A program made the position numbers and the translations under genes. A DNA stretch of 64,000 bases from Pseudomonas sp. PH1b (lineage in GTDB: Bacteria; Pseudomonadota; Gammaproteobacteria; Pseudomonadales; Pseudomonadaceae): positions 62,001-126,000 of the forward strand of contig NZ_AYMU01000011.1 of the NCBI RefSeq assembly GCF_000633395.1, in the 5' to 3' direction. Under the pieces are notes generated by a model that searched no databases, was not told the origin of the DNA, and was given only the letters and a program-made list of their open reading frames with translations. Positions 53,518 to 59,492 of this stretch are shown one piece after another (the first letter of the stretch is position 1; each line of letters opens with the position of its first letter).

Positions 53518-54609
53518 TCAGGCGGGGACGGCTGCGGCCTTGTGCGCGCGCTGCAGTTGCTGGGCGGCATTGCGCAACAGTTGCTCGGTGGCGTTCCAGC
53601 CCAGGCAGCCGTCGGTCACCGAGACGCCGTAGCGCAGGTTGTCGCTCAGGGGCTGGCAGCCTTCGAACAGGTGGCTTTCCAGCATCACGCCCATCAGTGA
53701 TGTATTGCCCTGCAGGCGCTGTTCCAGCACCTCGTTGAATACCGCCGGCTGGCGCAACGGGTCTTTGCCGCTGTTGGCGTGGCTGCAATCGACCATGATC
53801 CGCGCCGGGATCTTCAGTTTCTGCAGCTCCTGGCGCACCTGGGCCACGCTCTGGCGGTCGTAGTTCGGCCCGCGATGGCCACCGCGCAGTACCAGGTGGG
53901 TGTCGGGGTTGCCCGGGGTCTGGATGATTGCCGGGTGGCCCTGGCTGTCGACGCCGAAGTGGCGGTGCGGATGAGCCGCCGAGCGCATGGCGTCACAGGC
54001 GATGGCGACGCCGCCGTCGGTACCGTTCTTGAAGCCCACGGGCATTTCCAGGCCACTGGCCATCTCGCGGTGGATCTGCGATTCGGTGGTGCGCGCACCA
54101 ATCGCGACCCAGCTCAGCAGGTCGTCGAAGTAGCCGGCGGCCATGGGCTGCAGCAGTTCGGTGGCAATCGGCAGGCCCAGGCGCAGCATGTGGCGCATCA
54201 GTTCCCGGGACAGGGTCAGGCCGCCGGCCATGTCGTCGCTGCCGTCCAGGTCCGGGTCGTAGGCCAGGCCTTTCCAACCCACGGTGGTGCGGGGCTTTTC
54301 GACGTAGGCGCGCATCACCAAGAGCATCTGGTCGCTCACCTCTTCGGCCAGGTGGGCCAGGTTGGCGGCGTATTCCAGGGCCGATTGTGGGTCATGGATG
54401 GAGCAGGGACCGACCACTACCAGCAGGCGCTGGTCGCGGCCTTCGAGAATGGCGCGTACCGCCTGGCGGTGGGTGGCGACTTGCTGGCTCAGGGCCAGGG
54501 ATAGCGGCAATTGCTGCTTGAGCTCCAGGGAGCTGGGCAGGCGCCGGGTCAGGGTTTCATTGGCGCTGACGTGGGCGGACAGGGGCAGGGCGGATACGGA
54601 CGAGTTCAT
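53518..54609 (-). CDS. 3-deoxy-7-phosphoheptulonate (DAHP) synthase, class I
   Basis: This enzyme of 363 aa condenses phosphoenolpyruvate and erythrose 4-phosphate, the first step to Phe, Tyr and Trp. Motifs of the AroF/G/H class: VVGPCSIHDPQSALEYA, RAYVEKPRTTVGWKG, GARTTESQIHREMASGL, GFKNGTDG, RGGHRGPNYD and VDCSHANSGKD. The start is the Met giving MNSSVSALPLSAHVSANE. Two aromatic-rich leader peptides and an intrinsic terminator precede it (54657-55092). Which aromatic amino acid inhibits the enzyme cannot be read from sequence, so no AroF/G/H letter is given. Confidence 0.93.
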   Translation of the reverse strand: MNSSVSALPLSAHVSANETLTRRLPSSLELKQQLPLSLALSQQVATHRQAVRAILEGRDQRLLVVVGPCSIHDPQSALEYAANLAHLAEEVSDQMLLVMRAYVEKPRTTVGWKGLAYDPDLDGSDDMAGGLTLSRELMRHMLRLGLPIATELLQPMAAGYFDDLLSWVAIGARTTESQIHREMASGLEMPVGFKNGTDGGVAIACDAMRSAAHPHRHFGVDSQGHPAIIQTPGNPDTHLVLRGGHRGPNYDRQSVAQVRQELQKLKIPARIMVDCSHANSGKDPLRQPAVFNEVLEQRLQGNTSLMGVMLESHLFEGCQPLSDNLRYGVSVTDGCLGWNATEQLLRNAAQQLQRAHKAAAVPA

Positions 54610-54656: not shown

Positions 54657-54809
54657 CTACTGGGGTGTTCGACAATTGGCCGTACTGGCCATAAGTGTGC
54701 AATTGCCACCGGTAGGTGACCGATCGGAGGCGGCAGGCTGTCCCGAACGGAGGCTGCTAAATCGCCAGGCGCTAAACATGTCGTAACGGTAATAGGTGGA
54801 GTAGTTCAT
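54657..54809 (-). CDS. Second aromatic-rich leader peptide of the DAHP synthase operon
   Basis: This short gene of 50 codons has GAGG 8 nt before its ATG. It starts MNYSTYYRYDMFSAWRF, with four Tyr, two Phe and one Trp in 17 residues; the rest is ordinary. It lies after the intrinsic terminator at 54871-54910 and before the DAHP synthase gene. No second strong terminator is seen between it and the enzyme gene. It might act in translational coupling, or ribosome stalling, as a second layer of control. Function is inference. Confidence 0.55.
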   Translation of the reverse strand: MNYSTYYRYDMFSAWRFSSLRSGQPAASDRSPTGGNCTLMASTANCRTPQ

Positions 54810-54870
54810 GGGGCAATCCTCAAATAAGTTCGGTGTGTTGCTGAAAGTCGTGGTGAAAAACGTCAAGCCT

Positions 54871-54910
54871 GAAAAAACAAAACCCCCGGTCGGGAGGCCG
54901 ACCGGGGGTT
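54871..54910 (-). terminator. Intrinsic terminator of the DAHP synthase attenuator
   Basis: On the minus strand a perfect 13-bp stem (AACCCCCGGTCGG / CCGACCGGGGGTT, plus-strand 54881-54910) with a 4-nt loop is followed by TTGTTTTTTC (54880-54871). It lies 48 nt after the stop codon of the first leader peptide and about 260 nt before the enzyme gene. A competing pairing exists (see the leader peptide entry), which makes it an attenuator. Confidence 0.88.
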
Positions 54911-54957
54911 GAGATTTCTCTGGTAGGCGACCCGTGAAGTTGGGCGCCGGTTGGGTA

Positions 54958-55092
54958 TCAGGCGCGCCAGTGGCTAAACCAATACCCAAAATAAAAGCTC
55001 ACCGGAGCCTTGTCGCCGTTGACCCAGGCAGCCGCAACCGAGCGCAGGGCGCTGGCGGTGTGGCGATGCAGGGAAAGGGTCTGGGACAACAT
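54958..55092 (-). CDS. Aromatic leader peptide (attenuator) of the DAHP synthase operon
   Basis: This 44-aa leader has GGAG 7 nt before the ATG. Near the end it reads SFYFGYWFSHW: three Phe, two Tyr and two Trp in 11 codons. Within those codons the RNA TTGGGTAT (54989-54982) is complementary to ATACCCAA right after the stop (54958-54951). The same downstream strand continues to CCAACCGG, which can pair with CCGGTCGG of the terminator's 5' arm (54905-54898) with one mismatch. Ribosome stalling for lack of charged aromatic tRNA would free that strand and prevent termination. The peptide, terminator and both pairings are visible; control of transcription by them is inference. Confidence 0.85.
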   Translation of the reverse strand: MLSQTLSLHRHTASALRSVAAAWVNGDKAPVSFYFGYWFSHWRA

Positions 55093-55253
55093 GGGGTTTC
55101 TCCGTGAAGTGGGGCGAGCTTACTAGAGGCCGGGGCCGGGATTCAATCAGTAATTTCTATGGCGGTTTGGCGTGGGAGGCTATGGATTAAGCCTGCAGGG
55201 GATTTATGCCACACTCGCACTTCCCGCCAGATTGCCCTTATCAAGGAATGCGC

Positions 55254-57025: not shown

Positions 57026-57667
57026 TTGATTAGGGTGCTAGTAGTCGATGACCATGATCTCGTTCGTACGGGCATTACACGAATGTTGGCTGACATCGAT
57101 GGCCTGCAAGTAGTCGGGCAGGCGGAGTCCGGGGAAGAGTCCCTGATCAAGGCTCGGGAGCTGAAGCCGGATGTGGTGCTGATGGACGTCAAGATGCCTG
57201 GCATCGGCGGCCTTGAAGCCACGCGCAAACTGCTGCGCAGTCATCCGGATATCAAAGTCGTCGCGGTGACCGTCTGCGAGGAAGATCCGTTTCCGACCCG
57301 GTTGCTGCAGGCCGGAGCGGCGGGCTACCTGACCAAGGGTGCCGGCCTCAATGAAATGGTTCAGGCTATTCGCCTGGTATTTGCCGGCCAACGCTACATC
57401 AGCCCGCAGATCGCTCAGCAACTGGTGTTCAAATCATTCCAGCCGTCCAGTGATTCTCCGTTCGACGCCTTGTCCGAACGGGAGATCCAGATTGCCCTGA
57501 TGATCGTCGGTTGCCAGAAGGTACAGATCATCTCCGACAAACTGTGCCTGTCGCCGAAAACCGTGAACACCTACCGCTACCGTATCTTCGAGAAGCTCTC
57601 GATCAGCAGCGATGTCGAGTTGACGCTGTTGGCGGTTCGCCATGGCATGGTTGATGCCAGCCTCTGA
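57026..57667 (+). CDS. gacA: GacA response regulator
   Basis: This 213-aa NarL/UvrY-type regulator has a receiver with D8, D9 and the phospho-acceptor D54 ([10 protein letters not shown]). A LuxR-type HTH ([34 protein letters not shown]) forms the C-terminus. It starts at TTG with GAGG 7 nt upstream, the known form of gacA in fluorescent pseudomonads. GacA drives transcription of rsmX/Y/Z small RNAs and secondary metabolism; none of those RNA genes was recognised in this window. uvrC starts immediately downstream, which is the conserved gacA-uvrC order. Confidence 0.95.
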
Positions 57668-57668
57668 A

Positions 57669-59492
57669 ATGACCGACCTGTTTGATCCCAGCGCCTTTCT
57701 TTCTACCTGCAGTGGCCGTCCCGGTGTGTATCGCATGTTCGACAGCGATGCGCGCCTGCTCTACGTCGGCAAAGCCAAGAATCTGAAGAACCGCCTGTCG
57801 AGCTATTTCCGCAAGACTGGGCAGGCGCCCAAGACGGCTGCCCTGGTGGCGCGCATCGCGCAGATCGAAACCACCATCACCGCCAACGAAACCGAGGCGC
57901 TGCTGCTGGAGCAGACGCTGATCAAGGAATGGCGGCCGCCGTACAACATCCTGTTGCGCGACGATAAGTCCTATCCCTATGTGTTTCTGTCAGACGGCGA
58001 CTTCCCGCGTTTCAGCATCCATCGTGGGGCCAAGAAGCAGAAGGGCAAGTACTTCGGCCCTTACCCCAGCGCCGGGGCCATTCGTGAAAGCCTGAGCCTG
58101 CTGCAGAAGACCTTCATGGTCCGCCAATGCGAGGACAGTTATTACAAGAACCGCACCCGGCCCTGCCTGCAGTATCAGATCAAGCGTTGCAAGGCGCCCT
58201 GTGTCGGCCTGGTGGAGCCCGAGGTCTACGCCGAAGACGTGCGTCACTCGGTGATGTTCCTCGAAGGCCGCAGCAATGCCCTGAGCGATGAGCTGTCCAC
58301 GGCCATGGAAGCGGCTGCCGGCACCCTGGATTTTGAGAAGGCCGCCGAACTGCGGGACCAGATCTCCCTGCTGCGCCGGGTCCAGGACCAGCAGAGCATG
58401 GAAGGCGGTACCGGCGATGTGGATGTGGTGGCGGCGTTCGTCAACCCGGGAGGCGCCTGCGTGCACCTGATCAGCGTGCGCGGTGGGCGGGTGCTGGGCA
58501 GCAAGAACTTCTTTCCCCAGGTCGGCATCGAGGAGGAGGTGGCAGAGGTCATGTCGGCCTTCCTCAGTCAGTATTTCCTCAGCAGCCCCGAGCGCGACTT
58601 GCCAGCGGAGTTGATCGTCAATGTGGTGCACGAGGATTTTCCGACCCTGATCGCCGCCATCGAAGAGTTGCGTGGCCGTGAACTGACCATCAGCCATCGG
58701 GTGCGCGGTACCCGTGCCCGCTGGCAGCAGCTGGCGGTAACCAATGCCGAGCAGGCCCTGGGCGCGCGCCTGGCCAACCGGCAGCATGTGGCCGCGCGGT
58801 TCGACGCCCTGGCCGAAGTGCTGAACCTGGATGAGCCGCCGCAGCGCCTGGAGTGCTACGACATCAGCCATTCCAGCGGCGAGGCCACCGTGGCGTCCTG
58901 CGTGGTGTTTGGTCCGGAAGGGCCGTTGAAGTCCGATTACCGCCGCTACAACATCGAGGGCGTGACTGCCGGAGATGACTATGCCGCCATGCACCAGGCC
59001 CTGACCCGGCGCTTCAGCAAGCTCAAGGACGGCGAGGGCAAGCTGCCGGACATTCTCCTGGTGGACGGCGGCAAGGGGCAGCTGTCCATGGCCCGGGATG
59101 TGCTCAACGAGCTGGCGGTGCCGGACCTGATCCTGCTCGGCGTGGCCAAGGGGGCGACCCGCAAGGCCGGTTTCGAAACCCTGTACCTGAACGATGCAGC
59201 CCATGAATTCACCCTTAAGGGCGATTCGCCAGCGCTGCACCTGATCCAGCAAATCCGCGATGAGGCTCACCGCTTCGCGATCACCGGTCACCGTGCCCGA
59301 CGCGGCAAGACCCGGCGCACCTCGACCCTGGAAGGGGTCGCGGGCGTGGGGCCCAAGCGTCGGCGTGACCTTCTTAAACATTTTGGTGGATTGCAGGAAC
59401 TGTCCCGTGCCAGCATCGACGAAATCGCCAAAGCACCGGGAATCAGTAAAAAGCTCGCTGAGTTGATTTATGCAAGCCTGCACAGCGAGTAG
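57669..59492 (+). CDS. uvrC: UvrABC excision nuclease subunit C
   Basis: This 607-aa nucleotide excision repair nuclease has an N-terminal GIY-YIG domain ([20 protein letters not shown]) followed by the cysteine-rich [15 protein letters not shown]. Next come a UVR motif ([12 protein letters not shown], about 210-225), an RNase H-like nuclease ([22 protein letters not shown]) and C-terminal helix-hairpin-helix motifs ([16 protein letters not shown]). It lies 1 nt after the gacA stop and is probably co-transcribed with it. Confidence 0.97.

Follow-up and report, generated by a model that had tools for sequence, protein, structure and literature searches.

The DNA analysed here (a stretch of 64,000 nucleotides, hereafter the window) raises the question of how Pseudomonas controls the gene of its aromatic entry enzyme, DAHP synthase (DAHPS). 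The TyrR/PhhR box motif TGTAAA-N6-TTTACA has four matches in the window at up to three mismatches, with 3.18 expected; none of them lies near the leader of the gene, and weaker boxes are possible. In enterobacteria, for which a preliminary description of this locus had named TyrR/TrpR repression, aroF and aroH are under TyrR/TrpR, and the TyrR homologue of Pseudomonas is reported to control mostly degradation (PMC5343134). Comparison of the locus with its relatives indicates that the DAHPS gene is very probably controlled by a tandem, translation-dependent leader, the two parts of which are discussed below.

Organization of the locus

On the minus strand the elements of the locus follow one another in this order:

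55117-55146, minus strand: promoter-like boxes, TTGAAT (55141-55146) and TAGTAAGCT (55117-55125), 5' of leader ORF 1
54958-55092, minus strand: leader ORF 1, 44 codons plus stop, ending in SFYFGYWFSHWRA, with GGAG at 55100-55103 (ORF list and locus comparison)
54976-54996, minus strand: proposed control codons within ORF 1, F Y F G Y W F (from aromatic conservation in 124 distinct ORFs)
54871-54910, minus strand: terminator and T-run
54657-54809, minus strand: leader ORF 2, 50 codons plus stop, MNYSTYYRYDMFSAWRF...RTPQ, with GAGGA at 54817-54821, between terminator and DAHPS
53518-54609, minus strand: the gene under control, encoding a type I DAHP synthase of 363 aa (Pfam PF00793, 264.8 bits; NCBIfam NF009395, 534.3 bits; TIGR00034, 447.5 bits)

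The closest named enzyme is that of Pseudomonas protegens (95%), and we take PA1750 to be the PAO1 counterpart of the gene. The boxes follow the consensus tTgaa...aGTAaGcT in 49 diverse loci (capitals in at least 80% of rows, small letters in at least 55%), from which several distant loci deviate. Since a simple sigma-70 scan found no site, they are regarded here as a putative promoter. On the plus strand, at 57026-59492, a GacA-like response regulator is followed by a uvrC-like gene, both named by eye from their translations.

Leader ORF 1 and its aromatic codons

The 44-codon leader with an aromatic run that had been proposed for this locus was confirmed, stop codon and preceding GGAG included. 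In 126 such ORFs, the last 13 residues are 50% aromatic on average, compared to 2% in the rest of the peptide. An aromatic residue is present at position -4 in 121 and at position -3 in 123 of the 124 distinct ORFs, and Phe and Tyr are exchanged for each other at positions -5, -4 and -3. Positions -1 to +2 are held by 124/124, although they constitute the anchor pattern and their conservation is thus partly by construction. The last Trp (+4) is present in only 79/124. A ribosome footprint reaches about 13 nt past the A-site codon, and by this geometry the last Trp should not be a control codon, because a stall there would cover helix B, described below.

The aromatic tail was found in all 126 loci fetched through the RNA family P15 (125 by pattern, L049 by eye), a count that is partly selection because the P15 model spans the aromatic codons. 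A further set, the named loci, was fetched through the DAHPS protein alone, without P15, and comprises the best 80 of 589 confirmed ones. In these, the tail was recognized by pattern in 74/80 and by eye in five more, so that the aromatic codons, whose lack of conservation in related genomes would by the preliminary description have refuted the attenuator, are kept in 79 of the best 80 named loci. The five tails seen by eye belong to Halomonas species and a relative, Halomonadaceae tails having other aromatic orders (e.g., GYWFGYWF or GWYGYF), and the 80th named contig (L222) begins inside the DAHPS gene. The named and unnamed sets overlap, 8/74 motif stretches being identical. Neither leader ORF 1 nor ORF 2 matched any Pfam or NCBIfam family at E up to 10.

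The codons at the start of the run (54988-54996) are mostly TTT and TAT, with 73/88 of the Phe codons at position -5 and 94/100 of the Tyr codons at position -4. TTT and TAT are the rarer choice in GC-rich Pseudomonas, and their use here may favor a more sensitive response or an RNA that stays open.

The P15 RNA and its association with DAHPS

The aromatic end of ORF 1 is covered by a known RNA family:

54883-55000, minus strand: match to Rfam RF00627, 'Pseudomonas sRNA P15' (132 bits, where 70 is the gathering score; the match runs over the entire model, 1-119 of 119)

Over this full-length match the leader and RF00627 are the same RNA, although the family is filed as an sRNA gene and the second leader element downstream lies outside it. 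P15 is listed as one of the sRNAs that Livny et al. detected in P. aeruginosa (PMC2375449), and it has elsewhere been guessed to be a riboswitch (PMC2527527). It is here read as the 3' part of a terminated attenuator leader RNA. The source genome carries one copy above threshold. A weak antisense match on the plus strand (54819-54908, 33 bits, below the cut-off) overlaps the terminator and is perhaps its reverse complement.

In silico analysis revealed P15 above the cut-off in 268/298 genomes of the genus Pseudomonas and in 15/293 genomes drawn from the order, where 27 reach E ≤ 0.001, in three families. One set of 30 genomes had been picked for low P15 scores. A DAHPS gene was found downstream in 126/126 P15-fetched loci, with 60-100% identity to the enzyme of the window; one further locus (L002), with an antisense match below the cut-off, was excluded from the counts. 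With identical sequences counted once, 117 of the 126 attenuator loci remained, and 49 diverse rows were aligned. In a tree of 70 DAHPS (70/74 of the wanted rows), 52 leader-linked enzymes were separated from 18 paralogues by a single branch (100/100). Among 20 of the 29 Pseudomonas genomes lacking P15, two of them less than 80% complete, 19 carry only the paralogue, at 53-57% identity. In the remaining one the DAHPS gene in question starts at base 2 of its contig, and the paralogue is also present. Moreover, GGGTATTGG and TGGCGATTTA, strings of the first and second leader, were found in 0/19 upstream regions of the paralogues (450 nt each). Since P15 is missing where this DAHPS paralogue is missing, and the strings are absent in front of the other, the leader and this enzyme have been inherited together.

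These data bear directly on the view that P15 acts in trans as a small RNA and is no more than a neighbor of the DAHPS gene. It was as an sRNA that P15 was found and named (RF00627; PMC2375449), but a neighbor with an independent role would hardly be expected to precede DAHPS in every one of the 126 loci and to be missing along with it in 19/20 of the genomes examined. The P15 region also keeps an in-frame aromatic leader together with alternative helices, and we consider this view very unlikely, although the released P15 leader could act in trans as a by-product. The suggestion of a riboswitch (PMC2527527) agrees with the reading of P15 as the terminated 5' leader of a biosynthetic gene. It is nevertheless highly improbable, given that the conserved core of P15 consists of the aromatic tail of a leader ORF and that no riboswitch model was matched over the whole window, where Rfam gathering scores are reached by P15 and one tRNA only.

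Alternative helices of the attenuator

The attenuator reading of P15 requires RNA structures that exclude one another. Five helices were delineated, with the fraction of paired cells calculated over 49 diverse loci:

54951-54989, minus strand: helix A, TTGGGTAT (54982-54989) with ATACCCAA (54951-54958), proposed protector hairpin of the ribosome-free RNA; 75.3% of cells paired
54942-54968, minus strand: helix B, GGCGCGCC (W-R-A codons, 54961-54968) with GGCGCCC (54942-54948); 87.4%
54926-54948, minus strand: helix C, GGCGCCC (54942-54948), the arm that it has in common with B, here as 5' arm, with GGGtCGCC (54926-54933); 95.3%
54897-54928, minus strand: helix D, the proposed antiterminator, GCCtACC (54922-54928) with GGTcGGC (54897-54903); 93.2%, mismatch left out
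54871-54910, minus strand: helix E, intrinsic terminator (54881-54910) with T-run (54871-54880); 97.4%, 5/12 pairs changed on both sides

Helix E is the perfect 13-bp terminator with T-run of the preliminary description, and it was indeed seen, with a 4-nt loop and TTTTGTTTTTT after the stem; the distance from the ORF 1 stop to the stem, given there as 48 nt, was measured as 47 nt. Terminator-like sites numbered four in the 701 bases scanned, compared to a shuffle mean of 0.7. The best-folding T-run structure is present in 126/126 loci, the weakest of the 117 distinct ones having -20.0 kcal/mol, and a terminator was found in 69/74 named loci whose leader had been recognized by pattern. Helix A had likewise been noticed before. 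The exact pairing of its arms holds, but ATACCCAA does not lie after the stop codon as had been stated, since it begins inside it (TG-ATACCCAA).

Based on these helices, the first part of the switch might work as follows. Transcription would start upstream of ORF 1, at the putative promoter. A shortage of tRNA charged with Phe, Tyr or Trp would make the ribosome stall at FYFGYWF, where it would block helix A and leave the W-R-A codons free. These codons would form helix B with GGCGCC and so prevent helix C, whose 3' arm could then form helix D with the terminator's 5' arm, resulting in read-through by the polymerase. With plentiful aromatic amino acids, a ribosome at the stop codon would cover the 5' arm of B, C and E would form, and termination would release a short RNA, namely P15. 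Without translation, the formation of A would be followed by that of C and E, and the transcript would be terminated as well.

Folding predictions are consistent with this scheme. The states without ribosome, with a stalled ribosome and with a ribosome at the stop were folded for ten loci and then for 113 of the 117 distinct ones, those outside (L056, L057, L068, L083) having no helix C arm by pattern. Without ribosome, the minimum free energy folds of the 113 loci contained helix A in 91, C in 97 and E in 112. When the ribosome was placed on the Trp within the aromatic run and the terminator 3' arm was absent, B was predicted in 93/113 and D in 102/113, both together in 92, and C in 10. With the ribosome at the stop, C was predicted in 110/113 and E in 113/113. 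When the sequence from stop to terminator was shuffled (20 rounds; 46 of the 49 diverse loci, three without a helix C arm by pattern being dropped), B and D occurred together in 14.35 loci on average (maximum 21), compared to 34/46 real loci. For B and D together with C the values were 33/46 and 1.15 (maximum 3), although the arm of C was located by motif in the real sequence, which favors the real rows for this helix.

Covariation across loci, another check that had been suggested, gave a divided answer. Helices A, C and E jointly had nine pairs with double changes in the 49 diverse loci, compared to a shuffled mean of 4.3, and this was reached by 0/500 shuffles. B and D had 90.1% of cells paired, and their double-change cells (five, of which helix D contributes one and helix B four) and covariation score exceeded all 500 shuffles. 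However, their double-change pairs were reached by 88/500 and their pair types by 77/500, and the case for B and D is for this reason mainly one of conservation and slid controls. The antiterminator originally proposed did not pass. This pairing of CCAACCGG with CCGGTCGG of the terminator arm, which together with the two other hairpins would give a classical three-hairpin attenuator, does exist in the window with one mismatch. Yet in the 49 diverse loci only 68.5% of its cells are paired if the mismatch is counted and 76.6% if it is not, values below those of B and D, and its covariation score was reached by 486/500 shuffles. A three-hairpin attenuator built on it is thus very unlikely, and the five-helix scheme, which resembles that of the his attenuator, fits better with the alignments.

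The 5' arm of the terminator was predicted to be paired upstream, before its 3' arm is made, to a mean of 0.94 with a stalled ribosome and 0.83 with a ribosome at the stop (117 loci). Because it is predicted to be so paired in both states, the choice between read-through and termination must be kinetic, and a choice made in time is also known from other attenuators. Taken together, codon conservation, the linkage of P15 to DAHPS and the alternative helices leave the reading of the P15 leader as an attenuator of the DAHPS gene that works through the ribosome and its passage over Phe, Tyr and Trp codons well supported at the level of comparative sequence analysis, and in this respect the preliminary description is upheld.

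A second leader ORF

The attenuator had also been called complete. This does not hold, as the terminator is followed, still ahead of the gene, by another leader ORF that has an RNA element of its own. This ORF 2 (MNYATYYRYDSFTAWRF...), preceded by a Shine-Dalgarno sequence, was found in 119/126 P15 loci and not found by pattern in the other seven, and it is present in 75 of the best 80 named loci. In four Salinicola loci (L208, L209, L211, L213) ORF 1 lies close to DAHPS and no ORF 2 was found by pattern. Between two other loci, L079 and L080, the same ORF 2 differs in its distance from the ORF 1 stop by 138 nt (offsets 132 and 270), and extra sequence between the two leader elements thus seems to be tolerated.

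The reading frame of ORF 2 is maintained: in 36 rows compared with the window sequence, 21/21 gap runs were multiples of three, versus 9/71 from the ORF 2 stop to DAHPS, although runs common to relatives are not independent. For the ORF 2 alignments two loci (L066, L074) were dropped for length and 50 rows were split into 37 and 13. The residues are 39% aromatic through a W-R-F sequence and 0.5% after it, with a mean content of 3.5 Tyr, 1.8 Phe and 1.0 Trp, and the Tyr bias is found in the first 17 codons. The W-R-F sequence lies in a conserved stretch:

54756-54767, minus strand: TGGCGATTTANC, codons W-CGA-TTT-ANC, inside ORF 2

TGG CGA TTT is identical in 115/115 distinct ORF 2s, but WRF served as the recognition criterion for ORF 2 and the informative part is therefore the fixed choice of CGA and TTT. 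The 10-nt site TGGCGATTTA was found in 119/126 P15 loci and 74 of the best 80 named loci. A few codons before the stop of ORF 2, at 54657-54671 and equivalent positions, CGAACAC occurs in long and several short forms of the ORF, again with a CGA codon. A search by eye for long-range partners of TGGCGATTTA and CGAACAC found none.

Before W-R-F the third codon position is not more variable than the others (0.19, versus 0.27 and 0.25 at positions 1 and 2), and past W-R-F the nucleotides are fixed at many synonymous sites, both of which argue against a purely peptide role. That ORF 2 encodes a small trans-acting protein would account for its conserved frame and Shine-Dalgarno sequence; it would explain neither the fixed synonymous sites nor the probable pseudoknot described below. 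A protein of this kind is also at odds with the distribution of the ORF. Strong matches occur once each in 14/29 relatives, other matches having E of at least 0.006, and the ORF 2 DNA pattern likewise matches once in each of 14/29 genomes. An RNA model of the 66-nt element described below was built (covariance model with S1 only, strict filters). It detected the element in 2/369 genomes of the class and 12/293 of the order, once each, and all 12 loci so found stand before DAHPS. We therefore regard a trans-acting protein as very unlikely.

A probable pseudoknot inside ORF 2

The nucleotide conservation past W-R-F is associated with an RNA element:

54702-54767, minus strand: 66-nt RNA element, probable H-type pseudoknot, with stem S1 (54743-54750 with 54720-54727) and stem S2 (54729-54734 with 54705-54710)

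GG.GG lies at a fixed distance from TGGCGATTTA in 147/193 motif sites (101 distinct), in Pseudomonas and Halomonadaceae alike; of the other 46 sites, 45 have no GG.GG nearby and one has it three bases farther. The element was aligned in 44 diverse rows of the 101 distinct sequences. The variable columns were scanned all against all, and covariation was strongest for 18:48, with C-G in 30 rows, G-U in six, U-A in three, A-U in two and U-G in one. This pair closes the outer end of an 8-bp stem (18-25:41-48), S1, which had already been spotted by inspection of the alignment before the scan put its outer pair first. A second stem (34-39:58-63) crosses the first, which makes the structure a pseudoknot. 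In the 44 rows 94.2% of the cells of S1 and S2 are paired, with 16 double-change cells versus 5.6 in shuffled alignments, and both count and score were reached by 0/500 shuffles.

However, double-change pairs were reached by 62/500 shuffles and pair types by 43/500, pair 21:45 is unpaired in 26/44 rows, and a control slid by +3 had 17 double-change cells, four pairs and 12 further types, yet only 51.9% pairing. For these reasons the H-type pseudoknot in the ORF 2 of many Pseudomonas and Halomonadaceae is graded as probable only. Short forms of ORF 2, in Stutzerimonas and some Pseudomonas, keep TGGCGATTTA and lack this pseudoknot. A search of Rfam for a counterpart of the element gave a single match, on the other strand (E 7.4; 10.4 bits versus 37.8). 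RNAalifold predicted little structure for the whole stretch from ORF 2 to DAHPS (-12.48 kcal/mol, two double-change pairs).

Possible function of the second part

Read-through RNA would carry ORF 2, and a ribosome at W-R-F would meet the probable pseudoknot. The element sits about one ribosome footprint past W-R-F, which suggests control by the ribosome. Our best guess is that the second part acts as another ribosome-dependent checkpoint, mainly for Tyr, after the terminator, and that it affects either translation or Rho-dependent termination. We put forward only tentatively, as one possibility and not the favored expectation, that the ORF 2 element is a new leader switch, in which a ribosome at W-CGA-TTT on a Tyr-biased mini-ORF would oppose an internal H-type pseudoknot and take a second decision after the terminator. 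The pseudoknot may sense either a ligand or the position of a ribosome.

The idea that stalling in ORF 2 frees the Shine-Dalgarno sequence of DAHPS was not supported by a fold test. Mean accessibility of this sequence was 0.36 without ribosome, 0.35 for a ribosome stalled at any of three places and 0.27 for one on the stop codon. These means cover 100 of the 119 loci with ORF 2 (99 for the stop), the rest having no ATG or Shine-Dalgarno sequence at the expected place. Frameshift sites have a comparable spacing to a downstream structure as that seen here, where S1 begins 7 nt past TGGCGATTTA, and no stop interrupts the frame of DAHPS from its ATG back to 54702; but ORF 2 as an N-terminal extension of DAHPS, joined to it by a frameshift at TGGCGATTTA ahead of the pseudoknot, is barely credible and was rejected, since the frame of the DAHPS ATG relative to ORF 2 is not constant (offset of 200 nt in L001, 193 nt in L003 and 195 nt in L015), no canonical slippery heptamer was seen by eye, and ORF 2 has its own stop in most Pseudomonas rows.

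Relation to known leaders

The enterobacterial his attenuator (segments A to F) has five consecutive alternative helices, one set of which leads to the terminator and the other to the antiterminator. The scheme proposed for P15 has the same helix parity, but the his attenuator senses His at the his operon, and no relation in sequence is claimed. For the second part, the layout of repY-repZ of IncB/ColIb-P9 is reminiscent, as there the translation of a leader ORF decides whether a pseudoknot arises ahead of the main gene. We liken the ORF 2 element to it by the combination of leader ORF and pseudoknot, although repY-repZ serves plasmid copy control and its pseudoknot activates the gene.

Ribosome-mediated attenuation at DAHPS has likewise been described for the aroR leader of aroF in C. 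glutamicum, which has Phe-Tyr-Phe codons (PMC11802643; PMC4046766). This leader belongs to another phylum and answers to Phe, not Tyr (PMC11802643). It is likened to P15 by description, and the parts of these papers considered describe neither Trp codons nor a pseudoknot nor another leader ORF for it (PMC11802643; PMC4046766). As in the present case, trpL and pheL of E. coli precede their genes and encode a leader peptide that contains the amino acid under regulation (PMC11802643); however, each of them responds to a single amino acid and belongs to a terminal branch, while the P15 leader would respond to all three at the entry enzyme. Stav et al. (2019) listed two computational candidate uORFs with F and Y before shikimate genes, in five bacterial genomes, which resemble the P15 leader in this respect, the comparison being by figure legend (PMC6429828).

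In P. aeruginosa, a study of RNA 3' ends reported that transcripts end prematurely close to a possible uORF at trpGDC; 'P15' and 'aromatic' do not occur in its main text (PMC8297930). The terms aroF, aroG, DAHP, aromatic and 3-deoxy are all absent from the part considered of the text of an attenuator screen (PMC2965389). In the open literature we recognized no paper that links P15 to DAHPS attenuation or describes ORF 2, which is weak evidence of absence given that most subscription journals lie outside it. Two stacked translation-dependent sensors for the products of one pathway on one transcript, if the second part is such a sensor, would be without a parallel known to us.

Implications

The first gain of this analysis is the wiring of the attenuator and its identity with P15; the second leader ORF and its RNA element come next and are less well explained. 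ORF 2, with a near-universal 10-nt site, a probable pseudoknot and no counterpart in Rfam, poses a well-defined question. If the reading of the P15 leader is true, the Rfam family P15 gets a concrete job. It would also suggest how Pseudomonas controls the entry enzyme of aromatic synthesis, its TyrR homologue seemingly serving breakdown. Furthermore, members of the genus are used for the production of aromatic chemicals, and feedback by the P15 leader would matter there.
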